The notes under the pieces are model-generated. The model worked only from the letters and a program-made list of their open reading frames with translations, was not told where the DNA came from and made no database searches. A DNA stretch of 64,000 nt from Paeniglutamicibacter sulfureus (GTDB lineage: Bacteria > Actinomycetota > Actinomycetes > Actinomycetales > Micrococcaceae): contig NZ_BAAAWO010000001.1 of assembly GCF_039535115.1 (NCBI RefSeq), positions 2,418,001 through 2,482,000 of the forward strand. The letters run 5' to 3'. Below are positions 18,804 to 35,689 of the stretch, piece by piece. A program made the translations under genes and the position numbers. The first letter of the stretch is position 1, and every line of letters begins with the position of its first letter.

Positions 18804-18831
18804 GGTTCGCTGCTTCGACATACTTCTCTAC

Positions 18832-18883: not shown

Positions 18884-19000
18884 ATGTGCACGACATCCCC
18901 GGTGTTTCGCAACCGCCACTGACGCGGATTGCTCCCGGGTCCTTCGCCGTCTCACCTGGTGCCGTACCGCAACTTCCTCACCGGCTCCGGCACCAGCGCA

Positions 19001-22000
19001 CTAGCCAGCCAGGCGGATCCTGCCGGCGACGGATTCCAGGCGCTGTTCGCGGACCGCCAGTTCCAGGCCCTGTTGCAGGCGCGCGGAAACCTTCTGCGTC
19101 ATGCGTCCGTATCCCAGGACACTCATGGCCTCGCGCTTGAGCTCGTCGACCCCGGACTCCCCGGCCAGCGACGCCCGGGCGCACATCACGTTGGCGATTT
19201 CCCGGAGGCAGATGTCCTCAATGTCCAGACCGTGTGACGCGAAGCCGGTGCGGTAATCGACCCACCGGGCAGGGTCCTGCTTGGAGGGCCAAATGAAGCC
19301 CTCCGCATCAACCGTGTAGGACTTCCGCGGCAGTGCCGCCAGCATGGACTTCTCCCGCGCCGCGGACATCCTGCCGGATTCGTGGGCGCCGATGGCCAAT
19401 CGTGCCAGCCTTGTTTCGTGGATCGGCCATTCCGCCCCCGCGATGTCGCCCAGCAGCGCGGCGGCCTTCTTCTTGCCGGCAGCGCTCCTGAGTTCGTCAA
19501 GGTCGCCGAGCGTCCCCGCCGTGCGCGCGTCCCACGGCGTGTACGCGGTGGCCTTGCCCGGGTAGGCTTCCGGTCGCCCATCCGCCGCGCCGTCCCGGCT
19601 GCCACGCCATGCCTGGCCTTCGCCCGGGGACTTCACGGCGGCCGGAGCCGCTTCCCGCGCCGCCCGCGCCTTGCCTGCCTTTTCCACCGCGGCATCGAGG
19701 GAGTCCAGGACGGCCCCGGCATCCTGCAGCCAGGCCGGAAGCCAGATCCGCGCGACCGATTCCCAACCGAGCAGGCCGCGCAGGATTTCCTGCGGCAGGC
19801 CGTCGCGGTCCCCCACGGTCCGGCGCCGCGCCCACGGCCCGTTGTCCAACAGGATCGCCAGCAACGGCTCGGGCGGGCGGGCGGGATTCGCAACCGTCAG
19901 ATCGATCCTGAAGTCCGAGAGTCCCACATTCGTCGCCACCGCATGGCCGCGCTCCTTCAGCGCCGCCGCCACCTGCTCGCGGTGCCGGTCCCGCGCCACG
20001 GCCGAATCCGACCCGTTTTCCAGCGTGCGGGTGCCCTCTGCGGCAAGGTCAAGGTAGGCGCGCAGGTGCTTGATGCCCAGGGCCGAGGAGTCCTCTGCCC
20101 GCAGGTCCGCGGGGTCGAAGCTGGAGAACACCACGACCTGGCGCCGTGCACGGGTGATGGCCACGTTCAGCCGGCGCTCGCCGCCGACATTGTTCAGCGG
20201 GCCGAAGTTCAGCGGCAGCCTCCCGCGTGCGTTGGCGCTGAAGGCGGTGGAAAACAGGATCACGTCGCGTTCGTCGCCCTGCACGTTCTCCAGGTTCTTC
20301 ACGAACAATCCCTCGTCGTCCGTTTCCAGCGCGGCACCCAGGCGCTCGTCCGGGTCATCACGCAGCAGGCCCTCAATCAAATCGCGTTGCGGCGCGTTGA
20401 AGGTGACCACCCCGATGGACGGCGTGGACATTGGGGAGGCATCGAATCGTTCCTTGATTTCCGCGACGATGCGCCCGGCCTCCACCGGGTTGGTGCGCAG
20501 CACCTCGGCGGGCCCCGTGCGGTGGAAGGTGCCATCGACCCGCACCAGGGAAATGCCGTAGCCGTCAGGACCCGCGTGCGCGGCACCGTGGCGCGGGGAC
20601 GGGAAGGATGAGAGCTTGCCGTCATAGTAGTGCCGGTTGCTGAAGGCGATCAGCGATTCGTCCTGGCTGCGGTAGTGCCAGGACAGCCAGCGGCGGGCCA
20701 CCCTGGCCATGACCGCCTCGGACAGGATCGATTCCTCGTCGGCGACCAGCAGCCCCGATTCCGGATCCTCGTCCGGCTCGACGGAGACCTCGGCGAAGGA
20801 GCTCGGCGGCATCTGCTTCGAATCCCCCACGATGACCGCGGACCTGGCCCGGCCCAGGGTGCCAATGGCGTCGGCCACGCGGATCTGCGAGGCCTCGTCG
20901 AAGACCACGATGTCGAATTCGCCGGCCCGCGGCGGGAAGAACCGGGCGGCGGAGTCGGGGCTGACCAGCACGCAGGGCAGGATGGTGGTGACCAGGTCCC
21001 CGTAGGAGTCCATGAGCTGGCGCACGCTGAGCCCTCCGCGCCGGCGTTCGAGTTGGCGGGCCAGCTCCCCCACGCGGCTCTCGGCCTGCTTCAGCTTCTG
21101 CGCACGCTGGCGGGTGATCGCCTCGGGCAGGGACTTGGCCACGTGCCGGCGCAGCCGGCGCGACGAGTCGGTGAATCGCGCGATGGCGCGCTCCTGGGCA
21201 GCGGTGCTGAATTCATCGAATCCGTGGGTGGCAAGCCGTTCGGCCAGGGCCGACTCGGCGGTGCCGCGCAAGAACCCGCGCAGGGCGTTCTCGGCCGGGA
21301 TCGCGCCAGTGGCAAGTTGCGTCCAGGCCGCACCGAGGCCGTGGTCCTTCAGCGGTTCAAGCGCCTCGACAAATGCGACCCAGCGTTCGAGCCCGCGCTC
21401 GGCGTCGCGCCCGGTGACCCGGTCCTGGCCGGTGCGCCGGTACCTGCCCAGGAAGCCAGCGGTGTCGGGCCAGGCCTGCCCGGCGCGCGGTTCGGGCGCA
21501 ATGGCCTCCCGCAACGCGTCCCACGCTGCGGCGACCCGCTCCAGTTCCCCGGCACGCGCCGGATCTGCGGGGGTGTTTTGTCCAAGGACCTCGCGCAGCA
21601 GCGCCGCGTACTCCCGGTCCCGCCCGGCAGGTGCGAGCAGGTCCGCCAGCTGGACCAGGTTCTCCCGCCGCCGCGCGAGCCATTCGATGTCGCCGTCGAC
21701 AAAGGGGTTCCAGTTCCCGGACAGGGTGATTCCGGCCAGGGAGCCCAGGCCCGCGACGAGTTTGGCGCACTGCGCCCGCGCCTCGATCATGCCCTCCACA
21801 CTGGCCACGAGATGTTGCGCCGTGTCCTCGCCGCCGATCCAGCGCTGGCCGAAGTGCTCGGCGATGACCTGCAGGCGCCGCCTCTTCCGGCCGATCCCCA
21901 GGAAACCGAACCTGTTGGCAAGCGTGGCTGCCTCGTGAACCGGGGCAAGATCCATTCGAAGCACCGACGGCTCCACGAGCTCCGGCAGCCAGGCCATCTC

Positions 22001-25000
22001 CTGGACCAGCGCGGTCGCTTCGGTCAGCAGCGCCCCGCTGCGCGAGCGCCACTCCACCGTTGCCGCGGCATCGAGAACCGGCAGCGGGACCCCGGCTTTC
22101 AGCAGCCGGGCCAGGGCGCGCAGGTCCTGGGGTTCCGGGGCACGTTCCACCAGGGAGGCCACGCCCGGATCGCGCGTCAGGGTGCCGGCGCCGTGCAGGG
22201 CCAGGTCGAGGGCCTGCACCGCATCGAGTACTGCCTGTTGCAGTTCACCACCCAACGGTCCGCCAATGAATCCCCAGGGATGCTCGTCCCGCGGCCTGGT
22301 CGGACCCGCGGTGTCCGGGAGCCGCACCAGCGCCTGGCGCACCTCGTCAACTGCGGCGGGGAAGGCCTGCGCGGCAAAGCGTTCGGGGATGGGCAATGTG
22401 GCAATGGCCGGATCCATGGACAGGACGGTGTTGTACGCCGCATAGGTGGAGTAGCCGGCGGGGTTTTCCTCGTGGAGGTCCCGCGCATACCCGGCCAATC
22501 GGTGGACGGAGGAGGACAGGTCGGTGGAGGCCAATTCCATCCCCGCCGTGTCGGCGAAGACCAGGTGGTCAAGGGATGCCTTGATCTGGGCGCGCACCGC
22601 GTTTGGCGAGGAGCCCTTGTCATGCAGGTCCAGGGCGAACTCGCCCAGGCCCACCTCGTTCAGCCGCTTGCTCACCACCTCGAGCGCCGCCCGTTTTTCG
22701 GCCACGAACAGCACCCGCTGCCCGGAGGCCATGGCATGGGCCAGCAGGTTGGTGATGGTTTGCGACTTGCCGGTGCCCGGCGGGCCCTCCAGGACGAAGG
22801 TGTGCCCGGCGTGCGCGGCGGCGACCGCCTCCAGCTGGGAGGCATCCGCCGGGACCGGGAGCCTGGCGGCGAGCTGGTCCAGGTCAACGCCCTGCCCGGT
22901 GCCGGTTCCGGCGGGGTCGGTGAATTCGCTGGTCGGCGTGTCCACCAGGTGTCGCACCAGCGGCGCGGACATGAAGGTTTCCCAGTTTTCGTCCAGGTCC
23001 CGCCACATCCGGAACTTGGCGAATTGCAGGATCGCCAGATCGACGGTGCCCTCCACATGGAAGGGCAGGTCGGCGTCCGCCAGAGCGGCGCGCAGCGCGC
23101 CCAGGGCGGATTCGAGGTCGATTCCCGACCCGTCGCGCACCGGATCCTCGAATCCGGGGATGCGCAGGTTGAATTGCTCGTGCAGCTTCTCGCTCAGGCA
23201 ATAGTTCGGGGCGGAGGCGCCGGTCTCGTCGATTTCCAGGCGGAAGTGCTTGCCGCGTCCCGCCGGCCGAAGGGTGACGGGCACCAGGAACAGCGGCGAG
23301 CGCAGGGCGCGTCCGTCCATCGACCAGCTCAGTGAGCCCAGTGCCAGATAGAGGTTGTTGGCGCCGCTCTCGTCAATGATCCGCTTGGCCTGGCTGGCCA
23401 GGCGGCGCAGCCGGGTGAGGTAGGTTCCCGACTCGAGCTTCGTATAGGCCCGGCCGCGGGTCAGCAGCAACTCGATCCGGCGTTCGACCGGCAGCAACGG
23501 CCCCGAGGTGTATCTCTCCTTCTCGAGCGCGCCGATCTCGTCGGCGGGCAGCAACTCGATGCTCCGCCCGTGGTTGACCAGGTCCTCAAGTCCGGCGAGA
23601 ACGGAGTCGGGGATCGCCAGCGGGAGCCGGGAACGCTCGGTGAAGTTCAGCAGGCGGTTGCGCAGGGAGAGATCCAGCAGCCCGTTCTTCCACGCCGTGA
23701 TGCGCGGCGGCGCCGCCTGGACGGTGGGGGCCGGGGCTGCCTGGCGGCGTTCTGTCCTTTCCCGGAAAAAGCGCTCGAGGGTGTCGGGCGCCGCTGCCCG
23801 GTACTCGACCACGACGGGCTTGCCGAACTCCGAGATGCCGCGGGCCGGCAGCGGACTGATGCCGCTGCGCCGCGCCTGGCGGATGTCGATGGCGTAGACC
23901 ATCGACCCGGCTGCCGACGGAAGTTGTGCGTGGGCCAGTTTGGTCGCGGCTGCGGCTTCCGCCATGGGCGGGCGCCCGTCGGTGGTGATCGCGGTGGTCT
24001 CGACGATGCGCAGGTGGTCGGCGTCTACAAGGTTCGCCAGTGACCGGGCTCCCTCGGCATCGAGGCTGCTGCTGGGCAGCGCGCCGTCCGGGGTGCGCCA
24101 ATAGGCCAGGAACGCATGGCCGCACACCAGCCAGATGACCGAGTTGATGGCCACTCGCTCGAGTAGCGCGGACATCAGCAGTGTGGTGTCCAGGGCGGTT
24201 CCGAGCCGTTCGGTGAGGACCTCCTGGGCTGCGCGGACGTGTTGTCCCCCGAGATCGGCCAGGTCCCAATTTGCGGGCAGATTGCCGAGCCGGATGCCAC
24301 GGGCGCGCAACACCTCAAAGATGCATTCGACGGACTGGTCAACCCGCTGGGCGCCGCCCTGGCGGGCGTCGAGCGAGTCGGTCCCGCTGCGCGCCCGGAA
24401 CAGGTCCCCGGCCTCGGAGAGGATCCCGGTGAGCTGCGGATGCTGCGGCTGCACGAACGCGGCCAAAAGTTCGGCATTGGCCTGCGTGCCTGCACCCGGC
24501 CAGTAACCGGCCGGAAGCAGCTCGACCGCGCCCGATTCCTCGGCGACAAGTTTTCCGTTCTCGGCCACCCTGACAATGAGCCTGCCCGGGCGGCGGGTGT
24601 CGATCAAGGCGAAGGCCGCCGGGTCCAGCGCCACGTCCAGGTCATGGAGCGTGCTCAGACCCGGCGGGAGTTCCAGGCGGCTCTCGGCCACCGCGGAGAC
24701 CGGCAGGTTGCCTGCCATCACCACGGCCGTCACCAGGATCGACAATGGTTCCGGGCGGGGGTTCTCCAGTACCACGCGTTCAAGGATTCGGGCATGGGTG
24801 TGGGCCGAGGCGTAGTTGATGGAAGGACCGTGCGCGATGTCGATCCGGACGCGTCCACCGTTCCCTGCAGGCGCCGCATCGACGGTGGATTCCTCCGTGG
24901 CCTCCGGGTCTTCGACGTGTTCCGCGGCGGCCCGGGCCAGCTCGTCCACGCGCCGTGCCGGATGTTCCAGGCCCAGGGCCCGGAGAAATTGGGCACAGGT

Positions 25001-25345
25001 CGCCAGGTTCCGCTGGACGGCAGCGGCACTAAAGCCGGCACCCAATTCCCAGTCGTTGGCCACGTCGCGCAGCCTCGCGGCCAGCTGCTCTTGCCCGGCC
25101 GAAAGCATGATCACGTGCCCCGCTGCTCCGGGAGTTGCCATTAGCCTGCCCAACTGCGCGGGCAATGCCGCGGGGACGGTCGGTGGTTCGGCCCCCAACG
25201 CATTCTCAAGCCGGTCCAGCAGACCTGTCCAGCCGGCGGTTTGGTTCTGCCGGGCAAGGTGGTCGGCCATGAATGGAGTCAGTGCACCCGAAACGATGTC
25301 CAGTGCCGCACCGACGTATTCACGCAGTCTCATCCAGTTGCCCAT
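19001..25345 (-). CDS. Giant DUF4011 / SF1 helicase / restriction-endonuclease-like / DUF3320 protein
   Basis: 2114 residues. A DUF4011-type segment begins near 545 (WKNGLLDLSLRNRLLNF). The helicase has Walker A GPPGTGKSQT with Lys860, Walker B FDEASQ with Asp1483-Glu1484, GDSKQMPP (motif III) and LNVAITRARRQ (motif VI): SF1, Upf1-like. Residues ~1780-1900 (GLSDFRIDLTVANP ... LLAILLDNGPWA) match the MTES_1575/Vsr-like nuclease fold; ~1955-2105 is DUF3320. This architecture has been reported as a stand-alone anti-phage system (Hhe, name from memory). It probably unwinds and cuts foreign nucleic acid in the cytoplasm. It is monocistronic and flanked by terminators. Start 25345 or an in-frame ATG four codons later. 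Confidence 0.85.
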   Translation of the reverse strand: MGNWMRLREYVGAALDIVSGALTPFMADHLARQNQTAGWTGLLDRLENALGAEPPTVPAALPAQLGRLMATPGAAGHVIMLSAGQEQLAARLRDVANDWELGAGFSAAAVQRNLATCAQFLRALGLEHPARRVDELARAAAEHVEDPEATEESTVDAAPAGNGGRVRIDIAHGPSINYASAHTHARILERVVLENPRPEPLSILVTAVVMAGNLPVSAVAESRLELPPGLSTLHDLDVALDPAAFALIDTRRPGRLIVRVAENGKLVAEESGAVELLPAGYWPGAGTQANAELLAAFVQPQHPQLTGILSEAGDLFRARSGTDSLDARQGGAQRVDQSVECIFEVLRARGIRLGNLPANWDLADLGGQHVRAAQEVLTERLGTALDTTLLMSALLERVAINSVIWLVCGHAFLAYWRTPDGALPSSSLDAEGARSLANLVDADHLRIVETTAITTDGRPPMAEAAAATKLAHAQLPSAAGSMVYAIDIRQARRSGISPLPARGISEFGKPVVVEYRAAAPDTLERFFRERTERRQAAPAPTVQAAPPRITAWKNGLLDLSLRNRLLNFTERSRLPLAIPDSVLAGLEDLVNHGRSIELLPADEIGALEKERYTSGPLLPVERRIELLLTRGRAYTKLESGTYLTRLRRLASQAKRIIDESGANNLYLALGSLSWSMDGRALRSPLFLVPVTLRPAGRGKHFRLEIDETGASAPNYCLSEKLHEQFNLRIPGFEDPVRDGSGIDLESALGALRAALADADLPFHVEGTVDLAILQFAKFRMWRDLDENWETFMSAPLVRHLVDTPTSEFTDPAGTGTGQGVDLDQLAARLPVPADASQLEAVAAAHAGHTFVLEGPPGTGKSQTITNLLAHAMASGQRVLFVAEKRAALEVVSKRLNEVGLGEFALDLHDKGSSPNAVRAQIKASLDHLVFADTAGMELASTDLSSSVHRLAGYARDLHEENPAGYSTYAAYNTVLSMDPAIATLPIPERFAAQAFPAAVDEVRQALVRLPDTAGPTRPRDEHPWGFIGGPLGGELQQAVLDAVQALDLALHGAGTLTRDPGVASLVERAPEPQDLRALARLLKAGVPLPVLDAAATVEWRSRSGALLTEATALVQEMAWLPELVEPSVLRMDLAPVHEAATLANRFGFLGIGRKRRRLQVIAEHFGQRWIGGEDTAQHLVASVEGMIEARAQCAKLVAGLGSLAGITLSGNWNPFVDGDIEWLARRRENLVQLADLLAPAGRDREYAALLREVLGQNTPADPARAGELERVAAAWDALREAIAPEPRAGQAWPDTAGFLGRYRRTGQDRVTGRDAERGLERWVAFVEALEPLKDHGLGAAWTQLATGAIPAENALRGFLRGTAESALAERLATHGFDEFSTAAQERAIARFTDSSRRLRRHVAKSLPEAITRQRAQKLKQAESRVGELARQLERRRGGLSVRQLMDSYGDLVTTILPCVLVSPDSAARFFPPRAGEFDIVVFDEASQIRVADAIGTLGRARSAVIVGDSKQMPPSSFAEVSVEPDEDPESGLLVADEESILSEAVMARVARRWLSWHYRSQDESLIAFSNRHYYDGKLSSFPSPRHGAAHAGPDGYGISLVRVDGTFHRTGPAEVLRTNPVEAGRIVAEIKERFDASPMSTPSIGVVTFNAPQRDLIEGLLRDDPDERLGAALETDDEGLFVKNLENVQGDERDVILFSTAFSANARGRLPLNFGPLNNVGGERRLNVAITRARRQVVVFSSFDPADLRAEDSSALGIKHLRAYLDLAAEGTRTLENGSDSAVARDRHREQVAAALKERGHAVATNVGLSDFRIDLTVANPARPPEPLLAILLDNGPWARRRTVGDRDGLPQEILRGLLGWESVARIWLPAWLQDAGAVLDSLDAAVEKAGKARAAREAAPAAVKSPGEGQAWRGSRDGAADGRPEAYPGKATAYTPWDARTAGTLGDLDELRSAAGKKKAAALLGDIAGAEWPIHETRLARLAIGAHESGRMSAAREKSMLAALPRKSYTVDAEGFIWPSKQDPARWVDYRTGFASHGLDIEDICLREIANVMCARASLAGESGVDELKREAMSVLGYGRMTQKVSARLQQGLELAVREQRLESVAGRIRLAG

Positions 25346-25455
25346 CCCCGTTGATCGCCGGGCAACCCGATCAAGGGTGCCGCTTCCCTCCTAAGAACCT
25401 ATCCCAGATGCGCAGCGGCGGCCCGTCACTCGAGGCGCAGGCCAATCGCCGCCGC

Positions 25456-25821
25456 CTATTTGTAGTCGTTCTCGGTCAGCTCGATGACGAAGGCGCGGCG
25501 TTCGGTGATTAACGCATCGCGCATCACGAAGACCTCTGCCATGGTCATGCGCATGGTCGCACCGTTGGCACGGTGTGCCTCGCCGGAGAGTTCGGCCATG
25601 ACGACGTCGTCTTCCTCGACCAGGCGCACGATTTCCAGGACCGGCGGCCCACTGAAGTCCGGGCTTTCGATCGCCCCGTCGTAGGCATCCTTGCCGCTGA
25701 GCCGGAAGTGGCCGAAGACCGTCCATTCGATGTCCTCGGTGAGACAGGAAAGGATCTGGGCATGATCTGACTTGTTGAATCCGTCGATGTACTTCCTGAC
25801 GGTGTCCTTGTTTGCCGACAT
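25456..25821 (-). CDS. SnoaL/NTF2-like protein (nuclear transport factor 2 family)
   Basis: 121 residues from ATG 25821, chosen because CGGAGG stands 8 nt upstream. The pattern DTVRKYIDGFNKSDHAQIL, then LTEDIEWTVFGHF, is typical of single-domain SnoaL-like cone folds. Members are small-molecule isomerases, hydrolases or binding proteins; nothing in the context fixes the ligand. It is transcribed away from the riboswitch operon and towards the helicase gene, 110 bp upstream of it. Confidence 0.78.
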   Translation of the reverse strand: MSANKDTVRKYIDGFNKSDHAQILSCLTEDIEWTVFGHFRLSGKDAYDGAIESPDFSGPPVLEIVRLVEEDDVVMAELSGEAHRANGATMRMTMAEVFVMRDALITERRAFVIELTENDYK

Positions 25822-26063
25822 GGATGGAACCTCCGGGAATCCTGTGTGGCGCGTTGATGGGCGGCAGGGGCGGAACGGGCACCCGCTGTCCAACAGCTCG
25901 GGCCACGGGCGCAGGCCTGCCGATTCCCAAGGCTAACCACTGGCGCGGACGGATGGGAACACTCTCCCGTAGTGGAACCAAGTCGTTGTGAAACCCCGCG
26001 TCGAGCTGGAATCACCCTCACTCCCTAGGCCATTCCTTGTCGGATCGGAAAAAAGAAATTCAT

Positions 26064-26075
26064 GACCGTTCGGTC
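26064..26075. promoter_or_regulatory. GACCGTTCGGTC palindrome, candidate TetR-type operator
   Basis: GACCG-TT-CGGTC lies in AT-rich sequence about 100 bp before the riboswitch and 240 bp from the divergent NTF2-like gene. The spacing and sequence resemble TetR-family half-sites. No TetR gene is nearby, so the regulator would be encoded elsewhere. Confidence 0.4.
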
Positions 26076-26166
26076 GGCTGAAATAAAGAGTGCCGCTGTG
26101 ACCCACGTCAAGTAATGTTGGCTTCCAGCGGACAAGCAGCCGCCGACAACTGAATAGTCTTCCGAT

Positions 26167-26350
26167 CACGCGCGGCTGGAGAGTCCCGGACACCACTCGG
26201 GCACCGAAGGGGCAAGCACCCGCAATCTCTCAGGTACCAAGAACAGCCGCGTGAGGAAACTCTGGAGAGCAGCCGCCGGGACGGGTGGCTCACCGACGAA
26301 GCACGCCGGTGCCATGGGGCACCGGTTTCACTTTCAGGTTCAGGACAGAG
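26167..26350 (+). ncRNA. Tandem glycine riboswitch
   Basis: Two glycine aptamers in series. Aptamer I (26167-26253): P1 strands CGCGGCTG and CAGCCGCG enclose GGAGAG, CACCGAAGGGGCAA and AATCTCTCAGG, the conserved core words. Aptamer II (26260-26350): CTCTGGAGAGC, CACCGACGAAG, CACTTTCAGG and CAGGACAGAG. The linker is AGGAAA. Downstream, GAGCGGGC (26349-26356) can pair with GCCCGCTC near 26390, overlapping the 3' strand of aptamer II P1, so glycine binding and this hairpin should exclude each other. The first gene starts 78 nt after the aptamers. The operon is therefore predicted to respond to glycine, probably switching on. Confidence 0.93.
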
Positions 26351-26428
26351 CGGGCACGGTGGCACCTGGCAACAACATACGCCCGCTCCCACCGCACTGA
26401 ACCCTTCGATGAACGGTAGAACTCCCCC
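26351..26428 (+). promoter_or_regulatory. Expression platform of the glycine riboswitch
   Basis: The sequence contains the partner GCCCGCTC for GAGCGGGC that overlaps aptamer II P1. No long T-run follows the hairpin, and the ribosome site before ATG 26429 is poor (ACGGTAGAACTCCCCC), so control could be by termination or at translation; I cannot decide which. Confidence 0.6.
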
Positions 26429-27178
26429 ATGCAAATACCTGCCATATTGCCCGCCGTTGCGGACAGCAACTCCACGGACATCCTCGCCGTCGCCAATTCA
26501 CCGGTCCTCTGGGCCTGCGCCATCGGTGTCTTCCTGGTCATCATCGTCCAGTCCGTCATCTACATGAAGGCAGCCAAGATTGCCGCACCCCATGTTGGGA
26601 TGACCCAGGCCGAGCTGAAGACAAGCTTCCGCGCCGGCGCCGTTTCAGCCTTGGGCCCCTCGCTTGCCGTGGTCCTTGTCGCCGTTGCCCTGCTCACGAT
26701 CTTCGGCACACCCGCGGTCTTGGTGCGCATCGGCCTGATCGGTTCGGTGTCCTACGAAACCGCCGCCGCCGCCATTGCCGCCAACACGGCCGGCGCGGAA
26801 CTCGGCGGCCCCACCTACACCCAGGCGGTCTTCGGCCTGGCCTTGGCCGCAATGAGCCTTGGCGGTGCCATGTGGATGATCGCCACCCTCATCCTCACCC
26901 CGCTCCTCAAGCGCGGCGATTCCGCCCTGCGCAAGGTCAACCCGGCCATCATGCTGGTCGTCCCGGGTGCCGCCATGGTTGCGGCCTTCATGGTGCTGGG
27001 CATCGGCGAACTGCCCAAGTCGTGGCTGCACGTTGTCGCCTTCGTGTCCTCGGCGGCGATCATGACCATCCTGATGGTCATCGCGAAACGGGTCAACAGG
27101 CCGTGGATCAAGGAATGGGCGCTGGGCATTGCCATCATCCTTGCCTTGGCCATCACCTACGCCGCCACCCGCCTCTAG
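26429..27178 (+). CDS. DUF5058-family membrane protein, glycine-regulated
   Basis: 249 residues, about seven hydrophobic segments, beginning after a short extracellular-looking lead. Recognisable pieces are SPVLWACAIGVFLVIIVQS, a conserved GAVSALGPSLAVV loop and GLIGSVSYETAAAAIAA. The family has no established function that I know. It is the first gene behind a tandem glycine riboswitch, is followed after 28 bp by a second membrane protein and then an amidohydrolase. The two membrane proteins probably form one transporter for glycine or an N-acyl-glycine. Seen: membrane topology and the riboswitch; inferred: transport role. Confidence 0.8.
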   Translation: MQIPAILPAVADSNSTDILAVANSPVLWACAIGVFLVIIVQSVIYMKAAKIAAPHVGMTQAELKTSFRAGAVSALGPSLAVVLVAVALLTIFGTPAVLVRIGLIGSVSYETAAAAIAANTAGAELGGPTYTQAVFGLALAAMSLGGAMWMIATLILTPLLKRGDSALRKVNPAIMLVVPGAAMVAAFMVLGIGELPKSWLHVVAFVSSAAIMTILMVIAKRVNRPWIKEWALGIAIILALAITYAATRL

Positions 27179-27206
27179 CCGCCGCCAAGATTTCCAGGAG
27201 CACATC

Positions 27207-27950
27207 ATGAGCAATGCAACAGAAATCCACCAGGCGCTCGGCGCCTTTGACAAGACCACTTCCCGCTGGGGCCGGATCACCATGATCATTGGCCTGTTCT
27301 TCTCCCTGGCCGCCCCTGCCTACCTGGTCTTTTTCGCCGGCCTCGACATCGAAATCGCCGGCATCATCACGGCCTTCGCCGCCCTTGCCGCGGTCTTCGG
27401 CGTCATCTGGATCGTCGAGCCGTTGACCTACTTCCCGATCCTCGGCGCCTCCTCCATGTACCAGGCTTTCATGATCGGCAACATCTCCAACAAGCTGCTG
27501 CCGGCGGCGATGATCGCCCAGGCGACCATCGGCGTGAAGCCGGGCACCCGCAAGGGCGAACTGGCCTCGGTCGCCGCCATCTGCGGCGCGGCAGCCGTCC
27601 ACCTGTCGTCCCTGTTCATCTTCGTGGGCCTGCTGGGCACCTGGCTGGTCAGCGTGATTCCGGTCGACATCATCCAAACCGTCCAGTTCTATATCCTGCC
27701 GACCGTCATGGGCGCGGTGGTCGTTCAGGCCATCGTGAGCCAGAAGGCCCCTCGATCGGCAGTGATCGCACTGGTGGTCTCGGTCATCGTGGTCTTCTTC
27801 GCCCAGCTTTACAAGCCCTTCGGACTGTTCTCCACCGCCGTTGCCGTGATTTCCACGGCCGTCCTCGCCTGGGTGTTCCGCGACCGCAAAACCCTGGGCA
27901 CCCCGGAAGACGTCCCGGTGGACGCCACCCCCGAGGGCCCGATGTACTGA
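27207..27950 (+). CDS. Membrane protein, predicted partner of the DUF5058 protein
   Basis: 247 residues from ATG 27207 with AGGAGC upstream. After a ~25-residue cytoplasmic start there are about six to seven hydrophobic segments; conserved-looking stretches are FPILGASSMYQAFMIGNIS and LLPAAMIAQATIGVKPGTRKGE, the latter reminiscent of a re-entrant or pore loop. I do not recognise a characterised family. Close spacing to the DUF5058 gene and shared riboswitch control point to a two-component carrier or channel. Confidence 0.7.
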   Translation: MSNATEIHQALGAFDKTTSRWGRITMIIGLFFSLAAPAYLVFFAGLDIEIAGIITAFAALAAVFGVIWIVEPLTYFPILGASSMYQAFMIGNISNKLLPAAMIAQATIGVKPGTRKGELASVAAICGAAAVHLSSLFIFVGLLGTWLVSVIPVDIIQTVQFYILPTVMGAVVVQAIVSQKAPRSAVIALVVSVIVVFFAQLYKPFGLFSTAVAVISTAVLAWVFRDRKTLGTPEDVPVDATPEGPMY

Positions 27951-28008
27951 CCGGCACCCCCGGCAACCGTACCGACCCGCTAAAACACTCACTGCAAAAA
28001 TACTGACC

Positions 28009-28036
28009 GGCGGCGGCACCCTGCGGTGCCGCCGCC
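28009..28036 (+). terminator. Intercistronic hairpin before the amidohydrolase gene
   Basis: GGCGGCGGCACC (28009-28020) and GGTGCCGCCGCC (28025-28036) pair perfectly around CTGC. It lies in the 113-bp gap before the M20D gene, without a T-run. It may set lower amidohydrolase expression or mark an mRNA processing point. Confidence 0.55.
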
Positions 28037-28063
28037 AACCCAAAGCAAGGAACCCCCAGCCCC

Positions 28064-29296
28064 ATGGCCAACACCACGATTCCCCAGTCCCTGAAAATGT
28101 CCGCGGCCTCGGCGGCCGAAATGGGCGAGACCTACAAGTACCTGCATGCCACCCCCGAGCTGTCCATGCAGGAACACAAGACCGCAGACTACCTGGCCAA
28201 GCGGCTCGAGGATTTGGGGCTTGAGGTGTTCCGCTGCGGCGGCACCGGCGTGGTCGGCGTGCTGCGCAACGGCGAGGGACCAGTCATCGGCATGCGCGCC
28301 GACACCGACGGGCTGCCAGTGCTCGAGGACACCGGCCTCGACTATGCCAGCACCGCGACAGGTTCCCTGGATGACGGCACCGAGGTCCCGACCATGCACG
28401 CCTGCGGCCACGACACTCACATGGCCACTGCGCTGAAGACCGCCGAGCTCTACGCCGGTGCCACCGATGCCTGGGCCGGGACCGTCGTGTTCGTGCTGCA
28501 GCCAGGCGAGGAAACCGCCGCCGGCGCCCGCGCCATGGTTGAGGACGGGCTCTGGGACAAGGCGCCCAAGCCGGAGATCATGTTCGGCCAGCATGTGATG
28601 AACGGGCTCACCGGCACGGTCTCGCTGTTGGGCGGAGCGGCCATGACCACCGCAGACTCCTTCAAGGTCACCGTCTTCGGACAGGGCTCCCACGGCTCGA
28701 TGCCCGAGCACTCCATCGACCCGATCGTGCTCGGCGCGTCCATGGTGCTGCGCCTGCAGACCATCGTCTCGCGCCAGGTCGCCCCGCAGTCCGCGGCCGT
28801 GCTGACCATCGGGTCGTTCCACGCCGGGCTCAAGGAAAACGTCATCCCCGACCGCGCCGTGTTCACCATCAATGTGCGCACCTTCGAGCCGGAGGTCAGG
28901 GACATCGTCCTCACCTCGATCCGGCGCATCATTGCCGCCGAGGCAGAGGCCTCCGGCGCGCCCGAGCCGCTGATCGAGGACATCTCCAACTTCCCGCCGC
29001 TCTACAACGACCCGGCCGAAACCGAAAAGCTGGCCGAGGAATTCCGCGCCGAGTTCGGCGAGGAGCGGGTCCTGCAGGGTTCGCCGGTCATGGGCAGCGA
29101 GGACTTCGGTGCGCTGGCCGCGGCGATCGGCGTGCCCTCGGTGTTCTGGTTCTTCGGCGGAAATGACGCCAAGACCCTGGCCGCCGGCCACCCGCCGGCA
29201 AACCACTCGCCGTTCTTCGCCCCGGTCATGGAACCGACACTGAGCACCGGCGTCGAGGCGGCTGTCCGCGCCCTGTACTCGAAGCTCGGCAAGTAG
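28064..29296 (+). CDS. M20D-family amidohydrolase (hippurate-hydrolase/N-acyl amino acid amidohydrolase type)
   Basis: 410 residues. The two-metal site is visible: Cys114 and His116 in MHACGHDTHM, the Glu pair in QPGEE, His in FGQHVM and His in ANHSPFF near the C-terminus. The Cys ligand marks the M20D branch, which hydrolyses N-acyl amino acids such as hippurate, N-acetyl amino acids or IAA conjugates. Third gene behind the glycine riboswitch, so an N-acyl-glycine substrate releasing glycine is an attractive inference. Length and motifs are intact. Other acyl amino acids remain possible. Confidence 0.88.
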   Translation: MANTTIPQSLKMSAASAAEMGETYKYLHATPELSMQEHKTADYLAKRLEDLGLEVFRCGGTGVVGVLRNGEGPVIGMRADTDGLPVLEDTGLDYASTATGSLDDGTEVPTMHACGHDTHMATALKTAELYAGATDAWAGTVVFVLQPGEETAAGARAMVEDGLWDKAPKPEIMFGQHVMNGLTGTVSLLGGAAMTTADSFKVTVFGQGSHGSMPEHSIDPIVLGASMVLRLQTIVSRQVAPQSAAVLTIGSFHAGLKENVIPDRAVFTINVRTFEPEVRDIVLTSIRRIIAAEAEASGAPEPLIEDISNFPPLYNDPAETEKLAEEFRAEFGEERVLQGSPVMGSEDFGALAAAIGVPSVFWFFGGNDAKTLAAGHPPANHSPFFAPVMEPTLSTGVEAAVRALYSKLGK

Positions 29297-29310
29297 CGAA
29301 GACCTTCAAT

Positions 29311-29349
29311 CCTCCGGCCAGGTCTTCTTACCGAAGGCCTGGCCGGAGG
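29311..29349. terminator. Bidirectional terminator between M20D gene and iclR gene
   Basis: CCTCCGGCCAGG (29311-29322) pairs with CCTGGCCGGAGG (29338-29349). It stands between two convergent genes. Confidence 0.85.
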
Positions 29350-29393
29350 CATATATACGGGCTTTCGACGGAACCGTGCGCGTGCAGGGGCCC

Positions 29394-30146
29394 TTAGCGG
29401 CTACCGCGCAACAGCGCGCTGATTTCGCCCGCGGTTCGCACGACGGCGGTGCCGTACTCTTCATACTTTGCTGGCTCGATGCGGCTCGAGGGCCCGGAAA
29501 TCGACACGCTGCCGACCGGCACTCCCGCGGAATTCACGATGGGCGCCCCCAGCGACGTGATGCCGCTGCTCAACCCCTCCTCGTTGATGGCGTAGCCGCG
29601 CTCCCGCGTTTCGCGCACCAGTTTCCACACGGACTCGGGGTCGGTGACAGTTTGCTCACTGACGCCCTCCAGCGGACCGGCAAGGACGTCGCGGACAAAC
29701 TCGTCGGCGGACGCTCCCAGGAAGGCTAACCCGGTTGCCGAGGCGTGCAGGGGAATGGGGGTTCCCAGCGCCAGAAACGCGCGCAGCACGTGCGGGGTGT
29801 CGAGCCGCTCGATGACAACCAGCGACTTGCCGTCGGGGACACACAAGTGCACCGTTTCCCGGGTGTCCAGTTGCAGGCCGTTCATCGGGCCAATGGCAAT
29901 GTCCCGCAGGTCAACGCCTAGGCCAGCACGGGCGGTCACTGCATACGCGTGAAACGAGAGCGACCAGGCCGCATCCCGCGTATCGCTTTGCTGCACCCAA
30001 TTCATCTCCTTGAGTGTCGCGAGCATGCGTAGGACCGTGGCCTTTGACCCTCCGGTCCGCTTGGCAATGTCCGAAAGCCCGATGGGCTGGTGCAGCGAGA
30101 TTGTCTCAATGACCTGGATTGCCGTCTTCACGCTTTGCGTACTCAC
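29394..30146 (-). CDS. IclR-family transcriptional regulator
   Basis: 250 residues starting at GTG 30146, with GGAAGG upstream. Residues ~1-65 are the IclR HTH (VIETISLHQPIGLSDIAKRT, GSKATVLRMLATLKEMNWV); the remainder is the IclR effector domain (ETVHLCVPDGKSLVVIERL, YAINEEGLSSGITSLGAPI). It is divergent from a MatC-like carrier, CoA transferase and enoyl-CoA hydratase, with a dyad in the gap, and most likely controls that operon in response to an organic acid. Confidence 0.9.
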   Translation of the reverse strand: MSTQSVKTAIQVIETISLHQPIGLSDIAKRTGGSKATVLRMLATLKEMNWVQQSDTRDAAWSLSFHAYAVTARAGLGVDLRDIAIGPMNGLQLDTRETVHLCVPDGKSLVVIERLDTPHVLRAFLALGTPIPLHASATGLAFLGASADEFVRDVLAGPLEGVSEQTVTDPESVWKLVRETRERGYAINEEGLSSGITSLGAPIVNSAGVPVGSVSISGPSSRIEPAKYEEYGTAVVRTAGEISALLRGSR

Positions 30147-30216
30147 CGTGGATATACCCGTTCCTTCCCTTGACCAACACCCTGTTGTGATATAGCTTAC
30201 ATCCGAATTCCGAAAA

Positions 30217-30242
30217 TGAACCGTCGGTTCAACTAGTGAACC
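30217..30242. promoter_or_regulatory. IclR-type operator: TGAACC-GTC-GGTTCA plus extra half-site
   Basis: TGAACC (30217-30222) and GGTTCA (30226-30231) form a perfect dyad; a third TGAACC follows at 30237-30242. It sits in the 123-bp gap between the divergent regulator and carrier genes, 28 bp before the carrier start. Confidence 0.65.
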
Positions 30243-30269
30243 GCAGGATGTGCAAGTGAAAGGACGAGC

Positions 30270-31655
30270 GTGAGTTCTCAAATCATTGCCTTGTTGATCT
30301 TCGTGGGAATCTTTGCCGTGGCCACGCTTCGCAAGGTGCACCTCGGTGTCATCATGTTCGCCGCGGCCGCCGGTGTCGGCATTTGGCTGGCCGACCTGGA
30401 AATGAAGCAGGTGATCGGGGGCTTCCCCGTCTCCATCCTCGTGCTGCTCGTGGGGGTGACCTATTTCTTCGCCATCGCCCAGGAGAACGGGACCGTCGAC
30501 AGGATCATCGAATCCGCCATTGCCAAGGTCGGCGACAACGCCTTTGTTCTCCCCATCGTCTTCTTCGCATTGTCCGTCGGCATATCGGCCATGGGCTCCC
30601 CGCTGGCGGGCCTCGTGCTGACCCCCATCGGCATGCCGCTGGCCAAGAAGTACGGCATCGACCGGATGCTGATGGGACTTGCCATCGGCTGCGGCCTGAG
30701 CGCCGGAGGATTCGCCCCGACCAGCCTCTTCGGCATCGTGACCTATGGGACCGCCCACTCGGTGGGAATCCCGCTGAACCCGCTGCTGCTCTTCGGCGTC
30801 GCGCTTGGCGCCAACCTCGTGCTGATGATCGCCGCCTACGCCATGTTCGGCGGTTTCGGGTTGCTCAAGTCGCGGGCGAGCGGGTCCTTCAGCCCCTCGG
30901 CAGCACCGCGCTTTGCGGGCCGCGGACCGCTTCCCGCCCACCCGTTCGAGCGCGAGGGACTGACCCGCCGCAGCGCCGAGGCTGCACGCAGCAGCCTGCA
31001 GACCCTGGAGAAGGCCGACGCCGCGCCGGCCGTGCGCACGAGGATGAACACCACCCAATTGGTCACCGTGCTGTGCATGCTCGGACTGCTCACCAGCGTC
31101 ATCGTCCTGGCAATGTGCGGACTGGACCCGGACATCGGCATCCTGTGTTTCGCCTTCGCCTCGGTCATGACCTTGGTCGACCCGAAGACCGGAAAGACCG
31201 CAGTGGCCAAGATCGACTGGTCCACGGTCCTGATGGTCGGCGGCATCATCACCTTCGTCGGCGTGCTGCAGAAAATGGGAGCCGTCGAGCTGCTGGGCGA
31301 GGCGGCCAGCCGGATCGGCGCCCCGATTGTCGCGGCCCTGGTCATCTGCCTGATTGGCGGCCTGGTCTCGGCCTTCGCCTCCACCACCGGAATGCTCGCG
31401 GCCCTGGTGCCGCTGGCCATCCCGTTGGTGGCATCCGGCGACATTGCCGGCTGGGCCCTGATCGCCGCGCTCGGTGTCTGCTCCTCGATCGTGGATGTCT
31501 CCCCGTTCTCCACCGTGGGGGCCACGCTAGTGGCCACCGTCGAGGAAGACGAGCGCCCGCGCATCAACAAGCTGTTGACCCGGTGGGGCATGTCCATGGT
31601 CGTGATCGGCCCGCTGGGCCTGGTCGGGGCGCTCGTGCTGCCCACCATGTTCTAG
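30270..31655 (+). CDS. MatC-like (SLC13/ArsB-superfamily) dicarboxylate carrier
   Basis: 461 residues, about ten to twelve hydrophobic segments. The N-terminal third (VILVLLVGVTYFFAIAQENGT) matches the dicarboxylate carrier MatC N-terminal domain; a charged cytoplasmic loop lies near residues 205-255; the second half ends with DVSPFSTVGATLVA, a typical substrate-loop motif. Followed after 11 bp by a CoA transferase, so it probably imports the acid that is then activated with CoA. A paralogue with extended N-terminus is at 35690-37138. Confidence 0.8.
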   Translation: MSSQIIALLIFVGIFAVATLRKVHLGVIMFAAAAGVGIWLADLEMKQVIGGFPVSILVLLVGVTYFFAIAQENGTVDRIIESAIAKVGDNAFVLPIVFFALSVGISAMGSPLAGLVLTPIGMPLAKKYGIDRMLMGLAIGCGLSAGGFAPTSLFGIVTYGTAHSVGIPLNPLLLFGVALGANLVLMIAAYAMFGGFGLLKSRASGSFSPSAAPRFAGRGPLPAHPFEREGLTRRSAEAARSSLQTLEKADAAPAVRTRMNTTQLVTVLCMLGLLTSVIVLAMCGLDPDIGILCFAFASVMTLVDPKTGKTAVAKIDWSTVLMVGGIITFVGVLQKMGAVELLGEAASRIGAPIVAALVICLIGGLVSAFASTTGMLAALVPLAIPLVASGDIAGWALIAALGVCSSIVDVSPFSTVGATLVATVEEDERPRINKLLTRWGMSMVVIGPLGLVGALVLPTMF

Positions 31656-31666
31656 GAACCACGGCC

Positions 31667-32920
31667 ATGTCAGATTCATTTCCCCAGAAGGAGAACCCCT
31701 TGCTGCCCTTGAGCGGTATTCGCGTCATCGACCTCAGCCGCGCGCTGGCCGGCCCCTACTGCACCGCATTGCTCGCGGACATGGGTGCGGACGTCATCAA
31801 GATCGAGACCGTCACCGGCGGGGACTCCTCGCGGTCCTGGCCGCCGTTCGATGGGGACCACAGCCTGTACTTCGATTCCACCAACCGGAACAAGAAGTCG
31901 ATCTCGCTGGATCTCTACAGCGATGCCGGACGGGAACTGCTCGCCGGGCTGCTGGCCGACGCCGATGCGCTCGTGGAGAACTTCAAGCCCGGAACCATGG
32001 AAAAGATGGGGCTTGCGGCCGAGCGGCTGCGTGCCATCAATCCACGGCTGATCGTGTCCTCGATTACCGGCTACGGCACGGCCGGACCCTGGAAGGACCG
32101 TGCCGGTCTGGACCAGGTCATCCAGGCGACCTCCGGGCTGACCTCGGTCACCGGCAGAAGCGCGGAGGAGACCTACCGCGTGGGCATTCCGATCGTCGAC
32201 ATCACCACCGGCATGGTCTCCGCTTTCGCGCTGGTCAGTGCGCTCTACGCCAGGGCACGGGGAGGGGACGCCCACAACGTCTCCACCTCGCTGTTCGAGA
32301 CCGCGCTGGGACTCTCCGCCTTCCAGGGGCAAACCGCGCTGACGCTGGATCGCGCGCCGGAACCCCAGGGCAACAACCATCCGACCATCGCGCCCTACGG
32401 GGCCTTCGCCACGGCCAGCGACGACATCGTGGTGGCGGTGGCCACCGAATCCCAGTGGGCAGCATTCTGCTCGGTGATCGGGCGAATCGACCTGGCCGAG
32501 GAGCCACGCTTCGCCACCGGCCGGGACCGGGCACTGCACCGCGAAGAACTCAACGATCTGATCACCCGGGAGTTGTCGACCCGGCCGGCCACCGCATGGA
32601 TCGAGGAGCTCAATGGCGTGGGGATCCCCAGCGGTCCCGTGTTCGACTATGTGCAGGCGGTCAGCAGCGACCAGGCCCGCGCGCTGGGACTGATTGCCGA
32701 AACCCGGCGCGCCGACGGAACCCAGCTGCGCGTGCTGCGCGGCCCCGTGAGCATCGACCGCGTGCCCACGCCGGTGCGCCAGGCACCGCCCGCCCTGGGC
32801 GAGCACAGCCGCGAGATCCTCTCCGACATGGGACTCGACGATGAACAGATCAACCGCCTGATGGCGGAGGGCATCGTGAGGGAGCCTGCCGTCCTGGCCC
32901 CGAGCGGAGCGACGGCATGA
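31667..32920 (+). CDS. Class III CoA transferase (CaiB/BaiF family)
   Basis: 417 residues. N-terminal GIRVIDLSRALAGPYCTALL and ADMGADVIKIE are family signatures; the catalytic Asp is expected in GLDQVIQATSGLTSVTG; GNNHPTIAPYGAF follows. The enzyme moves CoA from a donor to an imported carboxylate. A 4-bp ATGA overlap with the enoyl-CoA hydratase gene shows tight coupling. Substrate not readable from sequence. Confidence 0.9.
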   Translation: MSDSFPQKENPLLPLSGIRVIDLSRALAGPYCTALLADMGADVIKIETVTGGDSSRSWPPFDGDHSLYFDSTNRNKKSISLDLYSDAGRELLAGLLADADALVENFKPGTMEKMGLAAERLRAINPRLIVSSITGYGTAGPWKDRAGLDQVIQATSGLTSVTGRSAEETYRVGIPIVDITTGMVSAFALVSALYARARGGDAHNVSTSLFETALGLSAFQGQTALTLDRAPEPQGNNHPTIAPYGAFATASDDIVVAVATESQWAAFCSVIGRIDLAEEPRFATGRDRALHREELNDLITRELSTRPATAWIEELNGVGIPSGPVFDYVQAVSSDQARALGLIAETRRADGTQLRVLRGPVSIDRVPTPVRQAPPALGEHSREILSDMGLDDEQINRLMAEGIVREPAVLAPSGATA

Positions 32921-33729
32921 GCGCAACGACGGCGGCAGCCCAAACGGTGGCAGGTCGCATCTCCAGTGCAATCAAGGGCGACATCGGCGAGATTGTGATT
33001 GAGAACCCGAGCCAGCGCAATGCCCTGACCCGGAACATGTGCATCGACCTCGCCGCACAGGTGCGCCTGCTCGATGCCGACCCCCAGGTCAAGGTCATCA
33101 CGCTGCGTGGCTGCGGAGACGACTTTTCGGCCGGTGCCGCCATCAACGAACTCGGCCGGGTCTTGTTCGACGAGGGCGCGAACGGGGAAGCCATAGACCA
33201 CCTCAGTGCCGCCGATGCGGCGATCTGCGCGGCGCGCAAGCCAACAGTCGCACTGGTGCGCGGGACGTGCATGGGCGGAGGCTGGCAGATTGCCTCGGCC
33301 TGCGACATGAGCATTGCCGCCGACACCGTCAGGCTTGCGGTCACCCCGTCCAAGTTGGGCATCATCTATCCGCGTTCCGGCATTGAACGCCTGGTTCAGC
33401 GGCTGGGCGCGGACAAGGCGAAGTACGTGCTGTTCAGCGCGGACCTGATCCCGGCGCAGAAGGCAGCGGCCTGGGGGCTGTTGACGGACGTGGTCCCGGA
33501 GGACGAGTTCGAGGTCCTGAGCCAGGGTCTGGTCTCCCGCATGGCCATGCGCTCGCAATATTCGATCCACACCATGAAGTCGCTGATCGATTCCATGGTT
33601 TCCGGGAGCAGTGCGGAGGACGAGCTGTGGCGCGCGGAATGGGCGAAGCTGCCGGCCAGCGAGGACTTCGCCGTGGGCCAACGCGCGTTCCTGGAGGGCG
33701 AAAGGCCGCGCTTCACCTGGGGCGGCTGA
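32917..33729 (+). CDS. Enoyl-CoA hydratase/isomerase (crotonase family)
   Basis: 270 residues. NPSQRNALTRNM near residue 30, the oxyanion-hole FSAGAAINEL and the second oxyanion motif VRGTCMGGGWQIASACD are crotonase hallmarks. In most hydratases two Glu residues follow; here the expected first position lies in the VTPSKLGIIYP segment without an obvious Glu, so activity may be isomerase, hydrolase or decarboxylase rather than hydratase. It acts on the acyl-CoA made by the preceding transferase. Confidence 0.85.
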   Translation: MSATTAAAQTVAGRISSAIKGDIGEIVIENPSQRNALTRNMCIDLAAQVRLLDADPQVKVITLRGCGDDFSAGAAINELGRVLFDEGANGEAIDHLSAADAAICAARKPTVALVRGTCMGGGWQIASACDMSIAADTVRLAVTPSKLGIIYPRSGIERLVQRLGADKAKYVLFSADLIPAQKAAAWGLLTDVVPEDEFEVLSQGLVSRMAMRSQYSIHTMKSLIDSMVSGSSAEDELWRAEWAKLPASEDFAVGQRAFLEGERPRFTWGG

Positions 33730-33755
33730 GCCCGAAGCCGTTGCCTCGCGGGAAC

Positions 33756-33793
33756 GGTGGGCGGACATGCTCCCCGTGAAATGTCCGCCCACC
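33756..33793. terminator. Bidirectional terminator between crotonase and alcohol dehydrogenase genes
   Basis: GGTGGGCGGACAT (33756-33768) pairs with ATGTCCGCCCACC (33781-33793), between convergent genes. Confidence 0.85.
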
Positions 33794-33815
33794 CAGTACT
33801 CCGGATCCGATGGCG

Positions 33816-34913: not shown

Positions 34914-35184
34914 CTCTGGCCTTTCGCGCATGGTGCTCGGGAAGGAATTGCGAGTGTTGCGCAGGCCCGGTCGTCTTTCACAGGGCCCGGGCGAAGCGGC
35001 GGAACCCGGGCGCGGGATCAACCGCCACTACCTTCATTCTTACCAGCGGCGCACGGATTCGTATACGGATGGCGCAGGGACGGCCGTCCCCGACTTCGGC
35101 AGTTTCCGGCGGTGCACTTGTGCACACCCCGGTGTGGCGCAAGGCTGGAGGAGACACCGATCCGATCCACGGCAAGGAAGCCAG

Positions 35185-35631
35185 ATGCTGAAACTCGAAG
35201 ATCTCGATCTGGACATGATCGCCATGGCCATGCAGGATGACGGCTCCATGGGCGTGGAGTACTACCTCAACACCCTCACGGGCGAGCTTGTCATGGCCGG
35301 ACTCGACGACGACGACCTCGAGGTCGATCCGGAGGAACTCGAAGACGAGAAGTATGCCGGGGTCGACCGCATTGAATCCTACGAGTCCTACCAACACATG
35401 GAGGATTTCACCCGTTCCCTGCCGGAAGGCGAGGTCCGCGCAAAACTCGAGCAGACGCTGATCCGCAGCAAGCCGTTCCGCCATTTCAAGGACGTGCTCG
35501 GCTTCTTCCCGGAGGAACGCGAAGCCTGGTACAGATTCAAGGACGAGGCCATGCGCCGGGTGGTCATCGAGTGGCTGGTCGGGATCGAGGCCGTAGAGGA
35601 TCCTGATCCCGCCGGAACCCGCGAAAAATAA
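35185..35631 (+). CDS. UPF0158-family protein
   Basis: 148 residues from ATG 35185, preceded by AAGGAAG. Strongly acidic first half (DDDDLEVDPEELEDE) and the family's conserved RSLPEGEVRAKLEQTL and FPEEREAWYRFKDEAM stretches. Function unknown. It is monocistronic; the 271 bp upstream hold no other gene that I can see. Ends at a strong hairpin. Confidence 0.85.
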   Translation: MLKLEDLDLDMIAMAMQDDGSMGVEYYLNTLTGELVMAGLDDDDLEVDPEELEDEKYAGVDRIESYESYQHMEDFTRSLPEGEVRAKLEQTLIRSKPFRHFKDVLGFFPEEREAWYRFKDEAMRRVVIEWLVGIEAVEDPDPAGTREK

Positions 35632-35632
35632 A

Positions 35633-35668
35633 AGTAGGCAGGGACCCTTTCTCGGGCTCCTGCCTACT
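35633..35668. terminator. Bidirectional terminator
   Basis: AGTAGGCAGG (35633-35642) pairs with CCTGCCTACT (35659-35668), preceded by an A-run and followed by CTTCG, between the convergent UPF0158 and carrier genes. Confidence 0.88.
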
Positions 35669-35689
35669 CTTCGACTGTGAATCGGGTCT

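Follow-up and report, generated by a model that had tools for sequence, protein, structure and literature searches.

A tandem glycine riboswitch leads a two-part membrane protein cassette with an M20 amidohydrolase in Paeniglutamicibacter sulfureus

The riboswitch-led operon

We analysed a stretch of 64,000 nucleotides (hereafter the window; positions 2,418,001 to 2,482,000 of contig NZ_BAAAWO010000001.1) from Paeniglutamicibacter sulfureus, a soil bacterium whose 4.57 Mb genome is assembled in one contig. At the centre of this account stands a cassette of three genes, coding for a DUF5058 membrane protein, a second polytopic membrane protein (ORF2) and an M20 amidohydrolase, which is preceded by a tandem glycine riboswitch. 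The features of the locus are as follows:

26166-26256, + strand: glycine riboswitch aptamer 1 (RF00504, 68.4 bits, E 4e-12 in the 64 kb window, model positions 1-94 of 94)
26260-26350, + strand: glycine riboswitch aptamer 2, the weaker tandem partner (RF00504, 29.8 bits, E 4.7e-4 in a 501-base search)
26351-26428, + strand: rest of the leader, the presumed expression platform
26429-27178, + strand: DUF5058 membrane protein, 249 amino acids (PF16481, 208.8 bits against a cut-off of 28.2, profile positions 1-222 of 222)
27207-27950, + strand: ORF2, second polytopic membrane protein, 247 amino acids, no named family
28009-28036, + strand: perfect 12-base-pair (12-bp) GC-rich hairpin in the gap between ORF2 and the amidohydrolase gene (predicted fold)
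28064-29296, + strand: M20 amidohydrolase, 410 amino acids (TIGR01891, 260.7 bits against a cut-off of 153.75; PF01546, PF07687)

Aptamer 1 was the sole match to Rfam at gathering threshold in the whole window. Measured against the RF00504 gathering score (32), its partner fell slightly short in the 501-base search, and the same site reached 38.7 bits (over 26252-26358) when the whole genome was searched. Among orthologous loci, aptamer 2 exceeded the gathering score of the Rfam model in L026 (33.4), L027 (36.6), L163 (39.4) and L030 (42.1), and it was not at gathering threshold in the riboswitch-led cassettes L016, L020, L151 and L184. A second tandem aptamer is common in the glycine riboswitch class and is not required. 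The whole-genome search with RF00504 recovered six glycine aptamers, arranged as three tandem pairs; laid on the RF00504 fold, these six had 92.4% of their cells paired (slid controls, at most 40.3%), and 9 of the 20 pairs had changed on both sides. From the end of aptamer 2 to the start of the DUF5058 gene there are 78 bases on the same strand, and ahead of the leader a predicted gene (25456-25821) runs divergently on the opposite strand. By these sequence comparisons the leader is confirmed as a member of the glycine riboswitch class RF00504. A preliminary description, made from the letters alone, had read a tandem glycine riboswitch here and proposed a covariance-model search against the Rfam glycine family; the reading was borne out (aptamer 1 stands above the gathering score), with its coordinates right to within a few bases.

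A consensus scan found no terminator-like site in 26351-26428 (a match at 26305-26326 was discounted, as it falls inside aptamer 2), and no consistent expression platform emerged on folding either whole leaders (the start-codon index being one base off in 10 of 11 cassette leaders) or the stretch behind aptamer 2 (the L016 row being wrongly cut). Better conservation of aptamer 1 has been described for the glycine cleavage (GCV) context of Bacillaceae (PMC6944388, section 7). The score advantage of aptamer 1 was tried as a clue to the sense of the switch and set aside, because aptamer 1 outscores aptamer 2 in all three tandem riboswitches of the genome and the comparison is thus non-discriminating. 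It seems somewhat likelier that glycine turns the operon on (induction together with catabolism) rather than off.

The three tandem riboswitches outline a putative set of glycine-responsive loci in this genome. One precedes gcvP (L011), with gcvT and glyA farther down the same strand; another precedes a CycA-type permease (L010; 751.2 against the NCBIfam cut-off of 732, D-serine/D-alanine/glycine transporter); the third is that of the DUF5058/ORF2/M20 cassette. Between the tandem riboswitch and the gene of the cycA-type permease there is an open frame (L010, about 1184-1612) whose long form overlaps the riboswitch. The preliminary description had remarked that no glycine-cleavage genes accompany the cassette. 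This holds at the locus itself, as tblastn detected no relatives of gcvP, gcvT, gcvH, glyA or sdaA in positions 18001-36000 of the window, but such genes occur elsewhere in the genome behind a riboswitch of their own, and in some relatives they adjoin the same cassette (see below). The genome also holds a paralogous cassette (L009) with no riboswitch match, adjoining an amidase and a relative of an AsnC-type regulator.

The encoded proteins

The gene order first given for the operon (DUF5058, a second polytopic protein and an amidohydrolase behind the riboswitch) is right, with DUF5058 and the amidohydrolase confirmed by profiles from Pfam and NCBIfam. The DUF5058 protein shows several hydrophobic segments in a hydropathy scan, and its AlphaFold2 model is all-helical, with a mean predicted local distance difference test (pLDDT) score of 82. 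For ORF2, Pfam and NCBIfam gave nothing at E 0.1, and across 56 members of its family no Pfam hit was better than E 0.002; the protein has 1294 homologues at E 0.001 and a conserved stretch around MYQAFMIGNI, and the copy in the window is 100% identical to that of Paeniglutamicibacter sulfureus As4PL (L015). Kinship of either protein to other families was considered and rejected, the Pfam matches being weak and scattered (DUF485 was matched weakly by 19 out of 57 members of the DUF5058 family, with E 0.0061 at best). A profile search of solved structures returned none for DUF5058 and two unconvincing matches for ORF2 at E 1.

The amidohydrolase, of an M20 kind that we take to correspond to COG1473, has intact HACGHD (at 112), QPGEE (146), GQHV (175) and NHSPFF (380) motifs, whose residues presumably serve as metal ligands and in catalysis; C114, H116, E149, E150, H177 and H381 belong to the residues that 98% or more of 94 aligned M20s share. 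It missed the equivalog cut-offs of the CpsA carboxypeptidase (265.1 against 500) and of DoeB2 (220.6 against 550). Its nearest relative of solved structure is the N-alpha-acyl-glutamine aminoacylase PDB 6slf (E 1e-89, aligned residues 12-402), which by name acts on acyl-glutamine, a likeness consistent with amide hydrolysis that does not point to a glycine substrate. No N-terminal hydrophobic segment was found by a simple hydropathy scan, and therefore a cytoplasmic enzyme working on an imported substrate appears to be the simplest layout.

The hairpin predicted between ORF2 and the amidohydrolase gene recurs, among 19 loci folded, in L016, L027 and L155, with an interrupted form in L024, and may take part in transcript attenuation or processing.

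Conservation of the cassette and its riboswitch

The distribution of the cassette was surveyed in Actinomycetota. A first set of 82 loci combined the 80 best of 171 ORF2 relatives with L012 and L013. Additionally, PF16481 was searched in three genome draws and found in 48 of 149 Micrococcaceae genomes (family draw), 44 of 396 genomes of the order draw (42 over cut-off) and 4 of 396 of the phylum draw (3 over cut-off). The 95 regions fetched by DUF5058 comprise 60 from the family draw (two pairs of which overlap) and 35 from the order draw, the latter being those over cut-off and additional to the earlier loci.

DUF5058 lies directly upstream of ORF2 in 82/82 loci, and ORF2 was present in 95/95 of the DUF5058-fetched regions (in L218 next to a partial DUF5058 that had escaped tblastn). 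Because they are so constantly found together in the surveyed regions, the two genes look like one unit. An M20 gene was found in 73/82 loci, some contigs ending before its position, and the window-type M20 in 85/95 regions. In Glutamicibacter nicotianae (L025, and likewise L171; 8001-8750) ORF2 is split into two frames and looks broken.

The retention of the M20 gene bears on an alternative in which the membrane pair would import glycine in free form, or else a similar small amino acid, the M20 enzyme being merely co-regulated and acting on an unrelated or peptide substrate. Riboswitch-controlled glycine transporters are a known kind (PMC3766115, PMC5829553), and some cassettes stand without an M20; yet the genome already possesses a riboswitch-controlled glycine permease, the window-type hydrolase is kept in the great majority of regions, and where it is missing in L184 a hydrolase of the same subfamily is swapped in. 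We consider this alternative quite unlikely, and prefer the import of a glycine-containing compound, to be cut inside the cell.

A covariance model built from the six aptamers of the genome itself (R1) was run over the surveyed loci. It placed a riboswitch directly upstream of the cassette in 11/82 loci (L012, L015-L018, L020, L024, L026, L027, L030 and L044), in 9/62 family-draw sources (window included) and in 1/35 further order-draw regions (L184); these sets overlap, as identical rows occur and L184 is a larger piece of the genome of L012. All eight loci chosen for their R1 matches were confirmed with the Rfam model (59.8-70.5 bits). When the Rfam model was applied to eight other loci, chosen before R1, the riboswitch was recovered upstream of the cassette in L015 and L044 and farther downstream in L025, while five had none. 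An apparently decayed riboswitch occupies the same place in L019 (duplicate L149), at 23.4 bits with letters lost in the alignment. By arithmetic, riboswitches lying by chance no more than 0.5 kb from a given gene would be expected in well under one of the surveyed loci. Thus, the survey of DUF5058 loci for upstream glycine aptamers that had been suggested in the preliminary description did yield riboswitch-led cassettes.

In Nesterenkonia (L044, 2615-6870), a set resembling 5-oxoprolinase genes lies directly upstream of the riboswitch-led cassette; by their motifs its members look LamB/YcsF-like and like a biotin carboxylase with partners.

Gene neighbourhoods and regulators

Glycine-breakdown genes recur beside the cassette in relatives. 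It is adjoined by gcvP, gcvT, gcvH, glyA and sdaA in Kocuria polaris (L035), Arthrobacter mangrovi (L052) and L138, by gcvP, gcvT, gcvH and sdaA in Zhihengliuella (L079), and by gcvP, gcvT, gcvH and glyA in Arthrobacter subterraneus (L093). Curated cut-offs were checked for representatives (gcvP, gcvT and gcvH of L079; glyA and sdaA of L035), the others being assigned by BLAST to these. A Gly_transporter (PF03458; assignment checked in L033 and L079) or a relative of it lies beside the cassette in L033, L075, L076, L079, L092, L165 and L168, and in Glutamicibacter L025 a riboswitch-led CycA homologue (over the NCBIfam cut-off) follows it. A metagenome-assembled genome (MAG) labelled Rhodococcus (L030) carries gcvP and gcvT behind one riboswitch, a lipoyl synthase and then a riboswitch-led cassette. 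In L184, from another family of the order, gcvT-gcvH-gcvP have their own riboswitch and the riboswitch-led cassette converges on them; the locus lacks the window-type M20, whose place is taken by another hydrolase of TIGR01891 (234.5 bits), hence the role of the hydrolase was apparently kept though the protein was exchanged.

The relations between these links were examined on a tree of DUF5058 and ORF2 for 112 distinct cassettes (quick method, simple model; several backbone branches with support below 30), from which the order-draw regions were left out. Fourteen of the 112 cassettes are riboswitch-led, 13 have gcv, glyA, sdaA, Gly_transporter or cycA within about 11 kb, and 26 carry one or the other kind of link (L030 has both). 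On this tree a minimum of 6 changes is needed to explain the riboswitch label and of 10 to explain the glycine label. A single clade of all riboswitch rows was rejected, a result to which losses may have contributed as well as independent gains.

A relative of an AsnC-type regulator occurs near 76/112 cassettes (two representatives carry PF13404). It is found near 0/14 of the riboswitch-led cassettes as against 11/12 of the others with glycine genes, as if regulator and glycine riboswitch replaced each other. The regulator lends weight to what we regard as the main rival explanation, according to which the pair would export glycine: high glycine (e.g., released by the M20 enzyme from peptides or amides) would switch on the riboswitch, and the pair would relieve toxicity outwardly as gcv does internally. 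BrnFE of Corynebacterium is an Lrp-controlled two-part exporter, and the layout of the cassette resembles it. The glycine links that speak for import also speak for this explanation, and according to PMC5829553, glycine binding as a general rule raises glycine-cleavage or glycine-export genes, and in Streptomyces griseus a detoxification system is switched on by such a riboswitch. However, a cytoplasmic hydrolase in the operon makes most sense with an imported substrate, and the amidase and CoA-transferase/carboxyltransferase neighbours of sister cassettes look catabolic. On these grounds export appears unlikely, and we retain import of a glycine-containing compound as the preferred explanation.

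These apparently catabolic neighbours belong to a large sister group (e.g., L046, L047, L062), in which the cassette is accompanied by an amidase (PF01425), an acyl-coenzyme A (acyl-CoA) carboxyltransferase (PF01039/PF03255), a CoA-transferase and an AsnC-type regulator; 50/112 cassettes are linked to the amidase or carboxyltransferase. The fact that 0/50 of these are glycine-linked, the rarity of the link in the order draw and the identity of the nearest solved M20 as an N-alpha-acyl-glutamine aminoacylase would all suit a further alternative, in which the riboswitch is a general signal of amino-acid excess or a chance capture and the cassette handles other N-acyl amino acids (e.g., acyl-glutamine). 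Against it, lineages devoid of the riboswitch recurrently have gcv, glyA, sdaA, Gly_transporter and cycA as neighbours of the cassette, and we judge this alternative very unlikely.

Two further features of the window lie near the operon. Downstream (29394-34913) lie an IclR regulator, a MatC/CitMHS carrier, a family III CoA-transferase, an enoyl-CoA hydratase and a zinc alcohol dehydrogenase, a cluster that stays beside the cassette in L015, L016 and L018. Upstream, on the minus strand (19001-25345), a 2114-amino-acid helicase/nuclease-like protein with DUF4011, AAA_11, AAA_12 and MTES_1575 matches the PADLOC candidate defence model PDC-S37 (863.7 bits).

Proposed function

The tie to glycine that had been read from the window alone is well supported, in Micrococcaceae, by the riboswitch in several lineages and by the recurrent glycine-gene neighbours, and we are highly confident, on the comparative sequence data, that the three-gene cassette belongs to glycine metabolism. 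Its proteins most likely handle a glycine-containing compound, because the operon is led by a riboswitch of the glycine class and the same genes stand beside glycine-breakdown genes in some relatives. The preliminary reading, in which glycine or an N-acyl-glycine is taken up and hippurate-like hydrolysis yields glycine, is thereby supported in part, its transport and its substrate being putative.

We reason that the operon would form part of the glycine regulon of the cell, in which DUF5058 and ORF2 would constitute a two-subunit transporter of the cytoplasmic membrane and import a small amide-linked glycine compound (either an N-acylglycine or a dipeptide containing glycine). In the cytoplasm the M20 enzyme would split this compound, and the freed glycine would enter glycine cleavage or be used by GlyA and SdaA. 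The tandem riboswitch would set the expression of the operon by the glycine level of the cell, in parallel to the riboswitches of gcv and of the cycA-type permease, and in relatives the AsnC-type regulator would stand in for it. Stated in this full form (a two-part importer and a hydrolase releasing amide- or peptide-bound glycine, with the transporter pair, the import and the substrate all putative), the proposal has, in our estimate, an even chance of being correct. Slightly more tentative is a broader generalization, in which DUF5058 and ORF2 would be the two obligate halves of transporters that form a family of their own, hitherto undescribed, and that carry amino acids in N-acylated or peptide-bound form. 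The family would be equipped with interchangeable hydrolase (M20 or amidase) and regulator (AsnC-type or riboswitch) modules, the branch of the window being dedicated to glycine and feeding glycine cleavage.

Several observations weigh against the import of a glycine compound. The window-type M20 was not found in 9/82 loci and in 10/95 regions (L135, L147, L148, L152, L165, L182, L184, L196, L203 and L215), some of these cases being contig ends; in Paeniglutamicibacter the hairpin ahead of the M20 gene may keep this gene off the riboswitch transcript; and no residue column, at the thresholds used, separates 24 glycine-linked from 39 amidase-linked M20s. The predicted models of DUF5058 and ORF2 match no solved structure at E 0.001. 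Considering the neighbourhoods, 36/112 cassettes have neither a glycine nor an amidase/carboxyltransferase link, and the separation of the two kinds of link (0/50 amidase- or carboxyltransferase-linked cassettes against 26/62 others with a glycine link, Fisher 1e-8) ignores shared descent, an independent-pairs sign test being not significant. The MAG contig L030 could owe its Rhodococcus label to a binning error. Lastly, L184 is the only one of the 35 further order-draw regions with a glycine link (25 have an amidase match), because of which the glycine branch seems to be mainly one of Micrococcaceae and the link rare outside that family (1/35 regions and the Rhodococcus MAG).

Relation to known systems

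Riboswitch-controlled metNIQ operons, nearly a third of which carry the COG1473 amidohydrolase gene amhX (PMC12452182), resemble the window in that a riboswitch precedes a transporter (putative in the window) and a COG1473 amidohydrolase. They differ in having an ATP-binding cassette (ABC) transporter under S-adenosylmethionine (SAM) or T-box control, whereas the window has the DUF5058/ORF2 pair and a glycine riboswitch. The glycine-cleavage operons of Actinomycetota that include glyA and a serine dehydratase (PMC12452182, PMC6944388) use the same tandem class, and such genes adjoin the cassette in several relatives, but their riboswitch target is glycine breakdown, while in the window it is a pair of membrane proteins without assigned function and an amidohydrolase; in Streptomyces, gcvT-gcvH-glyA-sdhA operons are described under contiguous glycine riboswitches (PMC12452182). 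Glycine also represses a symporter gene via a riboswitch (PMC5829553). With the sodium:alanine symporter family and other glycine transporters (PMC5829553, PMC3766115) the window shares riboswitch control of a likely glycine-related transporter; it differs from the riboswitch-controlled symporters in its protein families, its two putative subunits and its partner hydrolase.

We found no mention of DUF5058 in the literature searched, no usable account of the enzyme or of operons of the hippurate type, and no description of the cassette as a glycine riboswitch target (supplementary tables beyond that literature may list the operon unnamed). The accounts of glycine riboswitch targets in the excerpts of PMC3766115 and PMC2211319 do not mention it. 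According to PMC6944388 (section 10), 606 actinobacterial glycine aptamers mostly precede GCV (74%) or other glycine metabolism genes (22%), and a search of that paper for the words peptidase, uncharacterized, hypothetical and transporter had no hit, its wording being 'transport proteins'; in PMC9943018, 'amidohydrolase' denotes an enzyme under a guanidine riboswitch. It thus seems, from the available sequences, that the cassette of the window is a real and recurrent target, new for the known glycine riboswitch class.

If the proposed function is true, the cassette would be an added target in the glycine riboswitch regulon and would join metNIQ-amhX as another example of a transporter placed under a riboswitch together with an amidohydrolase. 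Two membrane protein families without an assigned function become directly testable, with a small set of candidate substrates, with soil bacteria as hosts and with the leader as a ready-made reporter.

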